Source of the DNA: Fundidesulfovibrio putealis DSM 16056
GTDB lineage: Bacteria > Desulfobacterota > Desulfovibrionia > Desulfovibrionales > Desulfovibrionaceae
Assembly: GCF_000429325.1 (NCBI RefSeq)
Contig: NZ_KE386885.1
Span: 699,055-763,054 of the forward strand
Direction: 5' to 3'
Length of the DNA stretch: 64,000 nt
The notes under the pieces were generated by a model. The model saw nothing but the letters and a program-made list of their open reading frames with translations. It was not told the DNA's origin and ran no database searches. Shown here piece by piece: positions 47,387-52,709 of the stretch (position 1 is its first letter; the number at the start of each line of letters is the position of its first letter). The position numbers and the translations under genes were made by a program.

Positions 47387-48106
47387 CTAGAAAACCTCGC
47401 GTGCCATCCAGATCACCCTGCCCAGCACGCGCACGCTCGCGCCCTCGTCCATGGTGACCTCAAGCGCCGGGTAGAACTGGCGGTTGTCGCTCACCAGCAC
47501 CAGCTGGCCGGGCTTCTTGTCCAGGCGCTTGACCACGATCTCCTCGTCGATGCCCACGGCGTAGATCTTTCCCGTGTAGATTTCGGTCTGGGACAGGTCG
47601 ATCAGCACCACGTCCTCGTCGCGAAGAGTGGGTTCCATGGAGTCGCCCGAGACGCGCATCAGGCGCATCTGGCTGATCTGGCCCTTGCGGCGCAGCCAGG
47701 CGTGGCGGAAGGCGTAGTAGGAGTCGATGGCCTCGTCCACCACCAGGCTGCCGCCCCCGGCGGACAGGCGGGCGCGAACCTTGGGGACGTACGAAAATTC
47801 GTCCGGGTGCGAGCCGGGCACCGTATGGTCGCGCGAGGACTGCGTGGCGTCCTGCCCCGCGATGTACATGGGGCCCATGCCCGATTCCAGCCACTGGGGA
47901 TTCAGGCCGTACTTGCGGCACAGGTACAGATACCAGTCCGCCGGGATGTGCGAGCGCTTCTTGGCGTCCGTGACGGCCTGTCGGCCTATCCCCAGGACTC
48001 TGGCCAGCTCGGACTGAGAGCGGATGCCCGTGGCGCTCATGATCCGCGACAGGACAGACTCTGCGGTGAAACCCTTGACCGGCGACTGGGGGATGGCTCG
48101 CTTCAT
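47387..48106 (-). CDS. S24/LexA-type repressor with HTH (CI-like)
   Basis: The 239-residue product from ATG 48106 has an N-terminal HTH (SQSELARVLGIGRQAVTDAKKRSHIPADWYLYLCRKYG), a linker with a candidate Ala116-Gly117 self-cleavage site (RLSAGGGSL), and an S24 peptidase domain with catalytic Ser156 (VSGDSMEPTL) and Lys193 (IVVKRL). It would repress its targets until RecA-stimulated autocleavage after DNA damage, as for phage CI and LexA. No phage genes surround it, so it is probably a stand-alone chromosomal regulator. An alternative ATG lies 48 bp upstream. Confidence 0.88.
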   Translation of the reverse strand: MKRAIPQSPVKGFTAESVLSRIMSATGIRSQSELARVLGIGRQAVTDAKKRSHIPADWYLYLCRKYGLNPQWLESGMGPMYIAGQDATQSSRDHTVPGSHPDEFSYVPKVRARLSAGGGSLVVDEAIDSYYAFRHAWLRRKGQISQMRLMRVSGDSMEPTLRDEDVVLIDLSQTEIYTGKIYAVGIDEEIVVKRLDKKPGQLVLVSDNRQFYPALEVTMDEGASVRVLGRVIWMAREVF

Positions 48107-48545
48107 TGTGAGGACCGCCTTGTTGTTTTTTGGAATATGGCTGCAAAGGTCCATTCCGTCAAGCGGGGCTGTTCTCGGTAAACGGGTGCGTACAGAATTG
48201 TCTTTCAGGCAAAGGCTCGTGTGCGATACCGCGCATCCAAAAGTACTGGGGACTATGGCATCCGCTCTTGCGCGCGCCTATGGGCGAACATCAAGTCCAC
48301 CATGACATGCATAGAGTCGTCGCGATTGCAAAATAGGCTTGATTGGTTAAATCTCGCTGGTGCGGTATGGAATATTTGTTCACAGGGGGCGGCGGGCATT
48401 CACGGCGCGTCGGGCTCAGCCGGGAATGCAACCCGTCCGGCCCGCGCGCCACCGGCCCCTTGACCCAATACGCCCATCGCTTATCTGTGGATTGCACCAC
48501 GGTACGCCCTTCGTGCATGACAAGGGCCGCCACGAGAGGTTCTGC

Positions 48546-49370
48546 ATGATACGCCGAAACCTGCCCGCCATCTTGATAGCCGCCGCCGTGATTCTGGCCG
48601 CAGCCTGTTCCACCGTCCCCTACACCGGGCGCAGCCAGATGAATTTTCTGGGCCAGAAGGAAGAGCTGGCGCTCGGCCAGCAGGCCGCGCGACAGGTGAT
48701 GCAGACGGAAAAAATCTCGCGCGATCCCGTGATGAACGCCGCAGTCAACCGGGTGGGGCGAAACATCGCCGCCGTGGCCAACATGCCCGGAGCCCGCTGG
48801 GAATTCCACGTGATCGACAAGGCCGAACCCAACGCCTTCTGTCTGCCGGGCGGCATCATCTTCGTCTATTCGGGGATATTCAAGTACGCCCGCAACGATG
48901 ACCAGCTGGCCGCCGTGATCGGGCATGAGGTGGCCCACGCCCTGGCCCGGCACGGGGCCGAGCGCATGAGCCAGCAGATGGCCGTGGCCCTGCCCGGCGT
49001 GGCCGTGGCCACGGTGCTGGACATGCAGTCGCCGGTGATGGGGCAGGCCTTCGCCCGCGTGTACGGCATCGGCGCGCAGGTGGGGTATGCCTTGCCGCAC
49101 AGCCGCTCTCAGGAACTGGAGGCCGACCGCATCGGGCTCATCCTCATGGCAAAGGCCGGGTACGACCCCGAGGCCGCGGTCAGCTTCTGGCAGAACATGA
49201 GCCGGGCGGGGGGAGCGAAACTTCCGGCGTTTTTATCAACGCATCCGGTGGGACAGGCGCGCATCCAGGCCATCATCAGGGCGCTGCCCGAGGCGCGGAG
49301 CTACGCGCCCGGCAAGCGCGAACAGTTCATCCCGCCCGACGACGATCCGCCGCCGGGCGTTCGGGGCTGA
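48546..49370 (+). CDS. M48-family metalloprotease lipoprotein (LoiP/YcaL-like)
   Basis: The 274-residue product has a lipoprotein signal (lipobox LAAAC, Cys21), FLGQKEELALGQQAARQVM, the zinc site HEVAH (His127, Glu128, His131) and the third-ligand region SRSQELEADRIGLILMAKAGYDP, and ends with THPVGQARIQAI. It is a periplasmic outer-membrane-anchored protease of the BepA/LoiP/YcaL type that handles misassembled envelope proteins. GAGAGG precedes the ATG. The 440 bp upstream (48107-48545) contain no gene I can support; a weak TTGCAA-N16-TAAATC promoter may lie around 48328. Confidence 0.92.
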   Translation: MIRRNLPAILIAAAVILAAACSTVPYTGRSQMNFLGQKEELALGQQAARQVMQTEKISRDPVMNAAVNRVGRNIAAVANMPGARWEFHVIDKAEPNAFCLPGGIIFVYSGIFKYARNDDQLAAVIGHEVAHALARHGAERMSQQMAVALPGVAVATVLDMQSPVMGQAFARVYGIGAQVGYALPHSRSQELEADRIGLILMAKAGYDPEAAVSFWQNMSRAGGAKLPAFLSTHPVGQARIQAIIRALPEARSYAPGKREQFIPPDDDPPPGVRG

Positions 49371-49390
49371 TGGCTGGAGGAGCGACGGGT

Positions 49391-49513
49391 GGCGGGCTGT
49401 GAGTTGGGGGATGTTCCGTTCGCGGCCTGGGCGGCGGGCTCGAACCGATTTGAAGACGATTCGTCGCCCGCCGCCCAGGCCGCGTCCGTTACACCCCCAA
49501 CCCCCAGCCCGCC
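49391..49513. repeat. 123-bp long inverted repeat
   Basis: The outer arms GGCGGGCTG (49391-49399) and CAGCCCGCC (49505-49513) pair. Next, GTTGGGGG (49403-49410) pairs with CCCCCAAC (49494-49501), TGT with ACA, and an 18-bp perfect core pairs 49422-49439 with 49466-49483. An inner CGAA/TTCG pairing lies in the 26-nt loop. It begins 20 bp after the M48 protease stop codon. Neither arm is followed by a U-run. Confidence 0.9.
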
Positions 49514-49517
49514 TGCG

Positions 49518-49704
49518 TTCAGCCTCACAGCTTGAGACTTACAATTCGAACCATGCAACTCGAGCCACACACTTCAAGGCTAACAACTTGAGCCTCACAA
49601 ATTGAGCCGTATGGCGCGAGCCTCACAATTCAGGCTTCAGACTTTAAGCCCGACACGCTGACTTTGAGCCTCAAAACGCGAGTTCCGGCCTCAAGCATCA
49701 AAAC
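49518..49704. repeat. Degenerate 14-bp tandem array
   Basis: Ten consecutive units (49518-49657) keep an exact 14-bp register with consensus TYGAGCCTCACAAC. After a 6-bp interruption come another clear unit (49664-49677) and two weaker ones. Best matches are 49588-49601, 49616-49629 and 49664-49677. There are no spacers, and 14 is not a multiple of 3, so it is neither a CRISPR array nor a coding repeat. Confidence 0.8.
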
Positions 49705-49755
49705 TGCGACCGCAAGCGTCCAAGAAAGCTTTGAGCACTCGAAGCGACAGCCTGC

Positions 49756-49850
49756 CGCGCTGGGATGCGAAGCCCACTGAAAGTTTTTGAGAGGAGGTCC
49801 CGGAGGAGAACTTTTTTCAAAAAGTTCTCCTCTGGGCCGCCGGAGGCATT
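49756..49850 (-). repeat. Family B 3'-end repeat with terminator hairpin (95 bp)
   Basis: A 95-bp homologue of the element at 25533-25627, in reverse orientation. It lies 7 bp beyond the stop of the minus-strand zinc-ribbon frame and in its sense direction. The hairpin GGAGGAGAACTTTTT / AAAAAGTTCTCCTC (about 49802-49833) should terminate transcription. The shared part includes the tail GGATGCGAAGCYCACT. Confidence 0.85.
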
Positions 49851-49856
49851 CTTATC

Positions 49857-50060
49857 TTACAGGCGATCCATGGGGATGCTGGCGTAGAACGCCTCCCAGT
49901 CGTCGTCGAGCATGTCTGTGAATTGATTCAGGGGAAAAAAGCGGCCGCAGGACCTGCACCGCACGCCTGCCTGCGTTCAGAGGCGCGCCGGGGCGACGCG
50001 TCCACCGCAGGCGGGGCACTCCGGCGATTTGGGCCGGGGCCCGAAAGACTGGAAAAACAT
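49857..50060 (-). pseudogene. Zinc-ribbon small protein gene with in-frame UGA
   Basis: Read through one UGA, the frame encodes 68 codons: MFFQSFGPRPKSPECPACGG, RVAPARL, then TGA (49979-49977), then TQAGVRCRSCGRFFPLNQF, ending FYASIPMDRL and TAA. The two CxxC knuckles, CPAC before and CRSC after the UGA, make a normal four-Cys zinc ribbon only if both parts are joined. The ATG overlaps the HD-protein stop (TGATG), indicating coupling, and a terminator follows. Either this is a gene inactivated by a nonsense change, or the UGA is read through (for example as selenocysteine). A pairing CGCAGG/CCTGCG just after the UGA exists, but a SECIS cannot be claimed. Confidence 0.6.
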
Positions 50061-51040
50061 CAGACTATCTCCGCTCCTGAGAGCACCATCACGAACCGTT
50101 TGAACAACTCGGTGTCGAAGGATCCTTTCATGTCGCGCATGACGCGCAGGGCCTCGAAAGGCGACACCGCCGACGCATAGGGCCTGGCCGTGGTCAGGGC
50201 CGCGAAGACGTCTACCAGCCCGACCGCCATGGCCGCCAGCGGAATTTCGCCGCTCCCCACGCCGCCGGGGTAGCCGGAGCCGTCGGCGCGCTCGTGGTGG
50301 AACAGGATGCACTGCATGGCCGTCAGCGAGAGGTTGAGCCCCGAGCAGAGCGCCACGCCCCTGGCCGGGTGGGTGCGCACGATAAGCGTCTCCTCGGCGG
50401 TGAGCGGTCCGGGCTTTTCGAGGATGGCGGCGTCGATGCCGAGCTTGCCCAGGTCGTGCAGCACGGCCCCCACGCCGATCTGCACCATCTCGTCCTCGGG
50501 CAGGGAGTAGGTGTTCATGAGGGTGGTGGCGAAGACGAACACCTGGAGGCTGTGGTCGTAGGTCTTGAAGTCGTGGGCCATGAGCGAGGCCAGCTGCTTG
50601 AGCGATTCGCCCCGCGCCAGGAAGGCCAGGGTTTTCTCCACGAAGGCGGCGATGCGCGCGAACTGCGCCCGCTTGAGGAGCTTGGCCGGGAGTTTCTTGC
50701 CGTAGAGTTCGCGCACCATGGACCGGGCGGCGGTATGGAAAATTCTGGCGCGGGCTTCTATCGGCACGCGGTCGTTCAGCAGATATTGGGCGAGGTTGTG
50801 CTCCAGGTAGCGGTCGAAGCGTTCTCGGTCGCTTGTTTGCACGAAGACTTCGGTGACGCCGTTCTCATGCAGCCTGGCGAGGTGCTCGCGGGTGTAGACC
50901 TCGTTTTCAGACGCGTAGAGCACCAGCCGTCCCGCCTGGCGGATGAACACCTTGAACCGTCCGAAGGCTTTGGGGAAGAGCATCAGGGGCGACACGGCGA
51001 AATAGCCGGGCTCCCTGGGGTTTTGCTGCTTTGCGGACAT
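50060..51040 (-). CDS. HD-GYP-type phosphohydrolase (c-di-GMP phosphodiesterase candidate)
   Basis: The 326-residue product has an N-terminal alpha/beta region of about 150 residues (FRFKVFIRQAGRLVLYASENEVYTREHLARLHENGVTEVFV), of the DUF3391-like kind, then an HD-GYP domain: HD at 195-196 (AVLHDLGKLGID), RTHPARGVAL and HHERADGSGYPGG (248-260). The GYP motif is intact, so cyclic-di-GMP hydrolysis is likely. It is co-transcribed with the interrupted zinc-ribbon gene. No receiver or PAS domain is present. Confidence 0.9.
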   Translation of the reverse strand: MSAKQQNPREPGYFAVSPLMLFPKAFGRFKVFIRQAGRLVLYASENEVYTREHLARLHENGVTEVFVQTSDRERFDRYLEHNLAQYLLNDRVPIEARARIFHTAARSMVRELYGKKLPAKLLKRAQFARIAAFVEKTLAFLARGESLKQLASLMAHDFKTYDHSLQVFVFATTLMNTYSLPEDEMVQIGVGAVLHDLGKLGIDAAILEKPGPLTAEETLIVRTHPARGVALCSGLNLSLTAMQCILFHHERADGSGYPGGVGSGEIPLAAMAVGLVDVFAALTTARPYASAVSPFEALRVMRDMKGSFDTELFKRFVMVLSGAEIV

Positions 51041-51164
51041 GATGCGTCTCCCGTGCTGCTTGAGTTCTCGTCAGGCGAAGTCCTGGTAGTCAAATGCCGC
51101 GAAAAAGGCTAGAATGGCAAGCGGTGTCAGCAATAATCAGGCCTGACCCGCAACGGGGAAAAAA

Positions 51165-51386
51165 ATGCTGGATGGCTGGGGTTCCACAGGCATCCCTGAC
51201 GACAATTCCGGGATGCCGATCATACTGAAGGTCCGCAGTCTGGTGGCCCAGGATCTGGCGCTGGCCGAGGGCAGCTCCATGCGCGGCTTCGCCGCGCGCC
51301 AGGCGGATCTGGGTTTCAGACAGTCGACGATGCTGCGCCGTCCCCCGGAAGTGGACATCGGGGCGCTGGTGGACCTGGGCTCCTGA
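51165..51386 (+). CDS. Possible small protein of unknown function
   Basis: A 73-residue frame (MLDGWGSTGIPDDNSGMPII...PEVDIGALVDLGS) with strongly G/C-biased third codon positions like neighbouring genes and a natural amino acid mix. A purine stretch (GGGGAAAAAA) precedes the ATG. No motif or family is recognised. It stands alone between the HD-GYP gene and the MITE-like element. It may be a real small gene or the remnant of a larger one. Confidence 0.4.
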   Translation: MLDGWGSTGIPDDNSGMPIILKVRSLVAQDLALAEGSSMRGFAARQADLGFRQSTMLRRPPEVDIGALVDLGS

Positions 51387-51398
51387 AAAGACCCCGCA

Positions 51399-51522
51399 GC
51401 AGCCTGTTGAAAAAATCCTGCCGGCTGCGTCGCACGGGAAAAGCCGACCCCCCGCGTTTGCCGAATACACCTCGGGCTTGACTCTTTACGCGCCTTGCCA
51501 GCGTTTTTTTATTACAGGCTGC
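51399..51522. mobile_element. MITE-like element bounded by inverted repeats
   Basis: A 124-bp segment starts with GCAGCCTGTTGAAAAAA and ends with TTTTTTTATTACAGGCTGC, which pair over 9 bp plus an A/T run. It has no ORF. Its boundaries and terminal inverted repeats resemble miniature inverted-repeat elements, and the terminal motif TTTTTCAACAGGCTG is familiar from repeats in related genomes. No clear target duplication is visible. It inserts 45 bp upstream of proB. Confidence 0.5.
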
Positions 51523-51566
51523 AAGAATCAACTATCTCCAAGAATCAACTTTCTCAACGGACTGCC

Positions 51567-52709
51567 ATGGAAGACTGGAAAATCAAGAAGACAGAGGTCC
51601 TGGATAAGGCCAAACGTATAGTCGTCAAGGTCGGCAGCGCGGTTTTGACCACCGGCAGCGGCCTGGATCAGAACGTGGTGAAGAGCCTCGCCAAGGACAT
51701 CGCCGCGCTCGTCAAGCAGGGCCGCGAAGTCCTGCTGGTCACCAGCGGGGCCGTGGCTGCCGGGCGCGCCGTGATCCGCCAGAACGACCTGGACGGCCTG
51801 CCCGACCGGCAGGCGGCCTCGGCCATCGGGCAGAGCCGCCTGATGCACGCCTACGACCAGGCCTTCGGCGACTACGGCATCGTCACCGCGCAGCTGCTGC
51901 TCACCCGCGACGACCTGGAAGGGCGCGAGCGCTACCTGAACGTGCGCAACACCCTGCGCACGCTGCTCAGCTGGCATTGCCTGCCCGTGGTCAACGAGAA
52001 CGACACCGTGGCCGTGCAGGAGCTGGTCTACGGCGACAACGACTGCCTCTCCTCGCTGCTGGTTGGCGTGGTGGGTGCGGACCTGTTCGTGAACCTGACC
52101 TCGGCCAAGGGCGTGTACACCGAAAATCCTGAAGAAAACCCCGGCGCGTCCTGCCACCCCTGCCTGGAAGGCATCGGCAGCCTGGATCTGGAGACCATGT
52201 GCCGGGGGAAGACCGTGAGCGGCACCGGCGGCATGCACTCCAAGCTGCTGGCGGCCCGGCGCGCGGCCCAGCTGGGCGTGCCCACGCTCATCGTGTCCGG
52301 GCGCGAACACGACCGCATGAGCCGCGTGTTCGCCGGGGAGGACCTGGGCACCTGGGTTCCCGCCGACGCCCGCGCCATCTCGCGCCGCAAGTTCTGGCTG
52401 GCCTACACCTCGGAGCCCAAGGGCGAGCTGTGGATCGACACCGGCGCGGCCCAGGCGCTTCGCCAGGGCGGCAAGAGCCTGCTGCCTGCGGGCATCGTGC
52501 GCGTTGAGGGAGAATTCGAGAAGGGCGCGATCGTGCGGATTCTTGACTTCCAGGGCCAGACCGTAGGGGTTGGCCTGGCCAACTACGACTGCGCCGAGAT
52601 GAAGAAGATCATGGGCCTGAAATCCGCCAAGATCGAGCAGGTACTGGGCCAGGCTCCGTACCCCGAGGCCGTGCACCGCGACAACATGGTGCTGGACGCG
52701 GCGCTGTAG
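51567..52709 (+). CDS. proB: Glutamate 5-kinase
   Basis: The 380-residue enzyme phosphorylates glutamate, the first step of proline synthesis. The amino-acid-kinase domain shows RIVVKVGSAVLTTGSGLD, LVTSGAVAAGRAVI, QLLLTRDDLEGRERYLNVRNTLRTLL, VVNENDTVAVQELVYGDND and KTVSGTGGMHSKLLAARRAA, and a C-terminal PUA domain follows from about residue 280 (EPKGELWIDTGAAQALRQGGKSLLPAGIVRVEGEFEKGAIVRI). Just upstream are two direct copies of CAAGAATCAACT 17 bp apart and the MITE-like element. An intrinsic terminator follows. proA is not in the window. Confidence 0.95.
   Translation: MEDWKIKKTEVLDKAKRIVVKVGSAVLTTGSGLDQNVVKSLAKDIAALVKQGREVLLVTSGAVAAGRAVIRQNDLDGLPDRQAASAIGQSRLMHAYDQAFGDYGIVTAQLLLTRDDLEGRERYLNVRNTLRTLLSWHCLPVVNENDTVAVQELVYGDNDCLSSLLVGVVGADLFVNLTSAKGVYTENPEENPGASCHPCLEGIGSLDLETMCRGKTVSGTGGMHSKLLAARRAAQLGVPTLIVSGREHDRMSRVFAGEDLGTWVPADARAISRRKFWLAYTSEPKGELWIDTGAAQALRQGGKSLLPAGIVRVEGEFEKGAIVRILDFQGQTVGVGLANYDCAEMKKIMGLKSAKIEQVLGQAPYPEAVHRDNMVLDAAL

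Follow-up and report, generated by a model that had tools for sequence, protein, structure and literature searches.

Palindromic repeats are common at the ends of bacterial genes, and whether they act as RNA, as DNA or in no role can seldom be decided from sequence. The gap at positions 49371-49856 of the window (the whole stretch of 64,000 nt that was analysed) raises this question for a composite of several repeats: does the composite act as RNA and, if so, for which gene, and what is the striking 14-bp array that it contains? The gap lies between convergent genes and holds, from left to right, a long inverted repeat (module B), the array, a GCGAAGC box, a second hairpin (module A) and a boundary motif. 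On the B side, the M48 peptidase gene (48546-49370, plus strand; PF01435, E 1.2e-41) ends with its stop codon at 49370. The A side adjoins the 3' end of a small zinc-ribbon-like frame on the minus strand (49857-50060) with two CxxC pairs and an in-frame TGA, and directly upstream of that frame lies an HD-domain gene (50060-51040, minus strand; PF13487, E 1.1e-23).

Module B, recognised by its arm pairs, covariation and folds, is a 123-nt hairpin at 49391-49513, and its RNA sense was judged to be the minus strand from an excess of C.A over G.T on the plus strand. Its conserved apex, GAACCG-ATTTGAAGA-CGATTC, spans 49442-49462 in pattern searches, with the loop at 49448-49456 reading UCUUCAAAU in the RNA sense. 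The array follows at 49517-49656 with ten in-register units (consensus YTYGAGCCTCACAA, plus strand), and the remaining spacer (49657-49760) contains scattered out-of-register units. The 3' hairpin module (49763-49847) takes in hairpin A (49799-49836; GGAGGAGAACTTTTTTCAAAAAGTTCTCC), a hairpin with further copies in the genome, and the boundary motif GCCGCCGGAGGC (49836-49847), which reads GCCTCCGGCGGC on the minus strand 9 nt past the minus-strand stop codon; the GCGAAGC box is at 49767-49773, and neither box nor hairpin A was assigned a strand. Module B, the ten-unit array and the 3' hairpin module had all been described in an earlier sequence-only reading of this DNA and were recovered here. 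Its further statement that nearly every base of the gap belongs to a repeat held for these three parts but failed for 49677-49760, where no 14-nt signal was found overall (lag-14 identity 0.20, with 921 of 1,000 dinucleotide shuffles at least equal).

Searches across genomes placed this gap in a dispersed family. When up to 3 mismatches were allowed, a 29-nt core segment of B occurred 54 times in the F. putealis genome, spread over its contigs, 22 times in the relative G006 (a MAG, 66% complete, with 91% nucleotide identity to F. putealis in the M48 gene) and twice in G005; four other members of the genus had no match, nor did the reversed-pattern control. A DNA search of the F. putealis genome with the whole stretch gave at least 83 matches, mostly to B and A modules (best 40 of 147 candidates). 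A covariance model of B, with at most 91 candidates scored per genome, found the module in 6 of the 7 genus genomes and in none of 32 further genomes that were examined (both strands counted: 89 matches in F. putealis, 54 in G006, 15 in G002, 6 in G005, 2 in G004 and 1 in G001), and G003 yielded no B by pattern or by model. The apex pattern with at most 1 mismatch was present in 5 of the 7 genus genomes and once each in 4 of 281 other genomes of the family, a rate outside the genus that is near that of the control (2 in all 288 genomes). By flanking homology, 15 of 20 G006 copy loci read were paired with F. putealis loci, 38 of which were compared. At the site under study, the G006 orthologue lacks B and has A modules with a short centre; in G003 the site is a GCCTCCGGCGGC-bounded gap next to a different gene, and in G004 it is a short ordinary gap. 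By title and abstract, the open-licence PMC literature returned nothing on these Desulfovibrio intergenic repeats or on the boundary 12-mer.

In most copies B stands after a GCTTCGC box and is followed by the spacer, often by a second hairpin (GAAGCGCGGCTTTGCGCGCTTC), and then by GCGAAGC and A; many copies are bounded by GCCTCCGGCGGC, which points outward. The copy under study has neither the M48-side (left-hand) A module nor the left-hand GCTTCGC box. GCGAAGC follows B and closes the spacer in 53 of 54 F. putealis copies and in all 13 G002 copies read, where it lies 22-59 nt past the stem (the G002 counts cover 13 of 14 pattern matches). The boundary motif has a wider distribution than B: GCCTCCGGCGGC occurs 166 times in the F. 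putealis genome (4 for the reversed control), 78-173 times in the other six genus genomes, 0-135 times in 16 family members outside the genus and 0-11 times in 16 genomes from other families, an excess that is strong in the genus and extends to several more genera of its family. When gaps of at least 60 nt are considered, the 64-kb window carries GCCTCCGGCGG in 5 of its 7 convergent gaps and in 1 of its 15 codirectional ones, with none in the 8 divergent gaps and a single match within a gene; GCCTCCGGCGGC gave the same counts. Its window sites (1203, 4282, 4392, 25536, 39176, 44496 and 49836) lie downstream of stop codons, chiefly convergent ones, and several are accompanied by a short hairpin, such as CAAAGGGC-TTC-GCCCTTTG. 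We also observed that two A modules of F. putealis carry homologous inserts of about 70 nt at the identical loop position (L033:1224-1294 and L014:1430-1498); the insert is a nested small repeat, and the G006 orthologue of L033 (L185) is free of it.

We asked whether the arms of B behave as a paired structure. Two arm pairs jointly cover 49391-49439 and 49466-49513, and 49391-49513 folds at -98.5 kcal/mol on the plus strand and -109.2 kcal/mol on the minus strand (z = -11.7 and -12.7; matched by 0 of 200 shuffles), which bears out the very stable structure that had been predicted for the inverted repeat. In an alignment of 61 copies (the copy under study, the F. putealis genome, G006 and two G005 copies), 90.4% of the cells of a 34-pair hairpin were paired compared to 77.3% in shuffles, and 239 cells had changed on both sides compared to 77.5; neither value was reached by any of 500 shuffles, and slid registers gave 39-49% paired. 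Compensatory changes thus exceed those in shuffles, as for a structured RNA. Conservation within B peaks at the apex. In G002 the arms have a different sequence, yet 10 of the 13 copies read form stems of 39-43 bp with 2-7 mismatches (the other three form stems of only 8-16 bp), and the apex with its 9-nt loop ATTTGAAGA is the same as in F. putealis. BLAST of B against G002 and G004 matched only 34-36 nt of apex. Stem lengths are given here for G002 only, because the ungapped method misses interrupted stems: it returned 4-7 bp in both G004 copies, in 3 of 4 G005 copies and in the F. putealis and G006 copies examined, in those of F. putealis because the stem is interrupted beside the apex, and the arms of G004 are poorly characterised.

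Between orthologues, B was no better conserved than comparable flanks (86.0-99.2% identity in 13 of 15 pairs, two having failed the search pattern, and 87.3-96.2% for the flanks of the 9 of them with more than 200 nt comparable). Some gaps contain two B hairpins (L188, at 1476-1588 and 2485-2608; L009; L019), and one of those in L188 of G006 is 11 nt short at the apex. A tandem duplication covers L022:1022-1449, its copies about 120 bp apart; it takes in part of B and is not seen in the G006 orthologue (spacer 257 nt compared to 76 nt). An Rfam search of 48000-51600 gave no match at gathering score; its 13 matches below gathering had E values up to 5, and 10 of them were to microRNA models.

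The pairs that depart from Watson-Crick complementarity indicate a strand, since C.A on the plus strand is G.U on the minus strand. In the 13 G002 copies, distinct mismatch events on the plus strand comprised 19 C.A/A.C, 3 G.T and 11 others (19 versus 3, p = 0.0009). The 61-copy stem cells showed the same direction with 99 C.A and 38 G.T, although much of this asymmetry rests on a few events, as dropping four columns rich in lineage-shared mismatch left 43 and 37. The strand-specific wobble expected of a structured RNA is therefore present in G002 and weaker in the 61-copy alignment; an apical C.A pair recurs in 50 of the 60 rows with letters and in 12 of 13 G002 copies. The surroundings were analysed with gene calls from a custom script that scores codon usage, with the window as training set and a score cut-off of 15, weak calls being included. 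Of the 54 F. putealis copies, 52 lie between two called genes, the gaps being 26 convergent, 24 codirectional, 2 divergent and 2 one-sided. In codirectional gaps the A side is at the upstream gene's stop 20 times and on the other side 4 times (p = 0.0015), and 48 of 54 F. putealis copies, like all 13 G002 copies read, have the 3' end of the GCGAAGC-side gene at the element. In the other six, two of which look divergent, the A-side gene starts rather than ends at the element (gene-call scores 20-50). Wobble direction, codirectional bias and A-side gene ends agree, which argues that B is part of the A-side gene's transcript. A similar asymmetry at sporadic mismatches could result from mutation that is strand-biased during transcription, but this too would imply transcription from the A side.

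The A-side frame at this locus, with CPAC and CRSC as its two cysteine pairs, has features of its own. Its in-frame TGA (49977-49979) lies between the CxxC pairs and is kept in the G006 orthologue (L047), selB scores above cut-off in all 7 genus genomes, and 18 nt downstream of the TGA is UGCAGGUCCUGC, which we take to resemble the fdhF SECIS. A word search found no homologue of the frame, Pfam zinc-ribbon matches (Zn_ribbon_8) stayed under the cut-off, and the fold downstream of the TGA is not exceptional (z = -0.38). From its sequence, the gene is a candidate selenoprotein gene. The 12-mer GCCTGCGTTCAG at the start of the array (49511-49522) recurs around this TGA (49969-49980).

The array is a genuine periodicity. 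Lag-14 identity over 49518-49676 is 0.545 compared to 0.258 ± 0.038, a value that 0 of 1,000 dinucleotide shuffles reached at any lag from 2 to 60, so the shuffled control proposed with the sequence-only reading comes out in favour of the period. The ten units also keep exact 14-nt spacing, as had been noticed, despite a mean pairwise identity of 0.58 and a mean identity to the consensus of 0.72. Other checks named at that time went the opposite way: Tandem Repeats Finder missed the array down to a score of 30, in a DNA search of 39 genomes nothing but the array itself scored better than E 0.05, and the array is absent at the same place in the near relative G006. We rejected the array as a locus-specific conserved feature, its best other match extending over 20 nt. 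Selection on the period, which had been suggested, is not required, because point mutation leaves a period intact. In three arrays, 62, 56 and 55% of the differences from the unit consensus are transitions, compared to about one third for randomly placed units, and in orthologous spacers 126 of 229 substitutions are transitions. This likeness suggests that the arrays most likely descend from tandem units that decayed by point mutation. The three runs contain 39, 52 and 74 substitutions with 0, 0 and one slip, and the orthologous spacers 229 substitutions with 44 gap events (10 of 15 orthologue pairs); the runs thus have fewer indels than the spacers predict, which is not evidence of constraint because they were picked for their register.

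Spacer length varies among copies from a few to about 360 nt, and clear 13-14 bp arrays were found in 3 of the 53 F. putealis spacers read: the copy under study, L040 and L205. The latter two have 13-bp arrays with a shared unit, TGAGTTCCGAYYC, and the model of either accepts the units of the other (in both directions, 0 of 300 shuffles scored as high). Their models also fit the array at 49517-49656 (1 of 300 shuffles as high), and the model of that array does not fit theirs (p = 0.76 and 0.09); an array in L038 is doubtful. A period test on 19 spacers of at least 100 nt from F. putealis and G006, covering the F. putealis copies up to the last 16, had the copy under study, L040 and L022 exceeding all 200 shuffles (the L022 spacer has a longer duplication), L039 marginal (p = 0.045) and the other 15 not significant. 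The last 16 were scored against the three unit models, which were applied to spacers of at least 70 nt (30 of 53 in F. putealis and 12 of 16 in G006, one F. putealis copy without GCGAAGC being excluded), and clear scores were confined to the same three copies. In a DNA search with the L205 spacer, matches elsewhere in the genus were restricted to its last 60 or so bases (the second hairpin), and its array part gave few matches, all outside the genus (E 0.06-0.09). Units differ from their consensus by 28-41%, more than the 17% between G006 and F. putealis spacers, so the array would probably predate the split of the two and have been lost in G006 or moved to its present site. The array is probably a decayed minisatellite, a tandem expansion of a variable-length spacer that is not needed for function, and a striking local array can thus be the by-product of a larger repeat.

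Together, these results place the gap among the 54 F. putealis copies of a composite repeat and suggest, with a probability of about one half, that the long hairpin of this repeat acts as a 3'-UTR RNA of the A-side gene, which at this locus means the HD-domain/zinc-ribbon pair on the minus strand. The RNA would run from the stop codon through the GCCTCCGGCGGC boundary, hairpin A, the GCTTCGC box and the variable spacer to hairpin B with its loop UCUUCAAAU, so that B would be co-transcribed with the A-side gene. As a transcript-end structure it may protect the 3' end or control read-through between convergent genes, and a putative factor may read the loop. Considering what the DNA itself displays, namely the copy number, the compensatory changes, the apex kept on replaced arms, the position 3' of genes and the strand asymmetry of non-Watson-Crick pairs, we infer that the best-supported function of B is a barrier at the transcript end, perhaps recognised by a factor that binds the loop. 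More tentatively, B could represent a novel structured 3'-UTR RNA family of one Desulfovibrionaceae genus, in which a 9-nt loop on paired arms of 40-50 bp and of any sequence is read by a factor and acts as a transcript-end signal common to dozens of genes. The structural RNA that had been guessed for this gap is hence favoured, though as a reading of the inverted repeat rather than of the array. A DNA-only element accounts less readily for the direction of the wobble. If B were a non-autonomous mobile palindrome of the REP/BIME or MITE kind, it would spread by copying, survive 3' of genes where it does least harm, and keep its pairing through the copying; complementary arms can indeed arise without selection, by quasipalindrome correction at replication. 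The dispersal of 54 copies over contigs, the mosaic nesting with other palindromic modules, the homologous inserts in one loop of two A modules and the presence/absence difference between two species at this site fit such an origin, which was also the selfish element of the earlier guess. We nevertheless consider it less likely than the RNA reading, given that the Y1 transposase associated with REPs (PF01797) is found in 0 of 7 genus genomes compared to 5 of 14 in the control, that the 15 paired G006 loci indicate that most copies were inherited in place, and that strand-asymmetric wobble would not be expected.

Two further explanations appear unlikely. BIMEs in E. coli bind gyrase, and a palindrome that extrudes, or that binds a supercoiling or nucleoid protein between convergent genes, would agree with the strong pairing on both strands and the enrichment in convergent gaps; such a DNA-level site should show C.A and G.T equally, whereas the counts are unequal, and the strong orientation bias in codirectional gaps would be unexpected. 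Alternatively, Rho could load on the plus-strand M48 transcript at the array, which would then be a periodic utilisation site, rich in C and poor in G, with one C step per Rho subunit and a hairpin pause after it. The highest C/G (2.83) of any 78-nt segment on the plus strand of the 64-kb window does lie near 49492, but that segment starts inside the 3' arm of B, and the best value for segments starting within the array is 2.36; all three clear arrays lie in convergent gaps with C exceeding G in the same orientation. The composition and spacing rule matches both strands of 49301-49900, however, with C/G up to 2.8 on the opposite strand, the skew does not track transcription direction in other long spacers such as L022 and L032, and the conserved columns are as much G and A as C (G in 9 of 10 units in one column, A in 9 of 10 in three). 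A 3'-UTR role of hairpin B for the A-side gene thus stays the preferred reading: the arms have been replaced between two species with the pairing and the 9-nt loop kept, and the wobble points to one strand. Whether such repeats act as RNA, and for which gene, is directly testable at dozens of sites in one genus.

Several known systems resemble parts of this element. Iteron arrays consist of conserved units beside a replication initiator gene, whereas here the neighbours are M48 peptidase and HD-domain genes; the low unit identity, the DNA search (38 other genomes without a match below E 0.05) and the G006 orthologue leave an iteron-like protein-binding array, as once proposed, unsupported. The published rule for rut sites, as given in an excerpt of PMC6407284, asks for 78 nt with C/G > 1 and a C every 11-13 nt, then a hairpin; the array is alike in its C > G and its 13-14 nt step and unlike in its equally conserved G and A columns and its occurrence in only 3 of 53 spacers. 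Intrinsic, bidirectional terminators likewise lie between convergent genes. The minus strand of 49371-49856 has no hairpin with a U-tract (terminator-like site), so plain intrinsic termination is unsupported; one terminator-like site is on the plus strand at 49829-49846, and the orthologue of the L040 neighbour gene has a hairpin with a T-rich tail 3' of the gene in G001 and G003. REPs are known to protect mRNA 3' ends. REP/BIME elements are, in passages of PMC3733652, dispersed and often clustered intergenic palindromes, mostly of convergent or unidirectional gaps, that are thought to act as RNA. They share with B its multiple copies and its preference for such gaps, and differ in having units of 20-40 bp tagged GTAG or CGTC at one end, compared to about 123 nt with the apex most conserved, and in being accompanied by a Y1 tyrosine transposase (RAYT); the same passages stress frequent GT pairs, whereas B has few and its mismatches are one-sided. 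Finally, stem-loops cluster at gene 3' ends and in convergent gaps of many bacteria, as excerpts of PMC1590033 report; these stable intergenic stem-loops appear there as mixed populations, whereas the B copies form a single sequence family in which the loop is conserved and the modules keep a fixed order.
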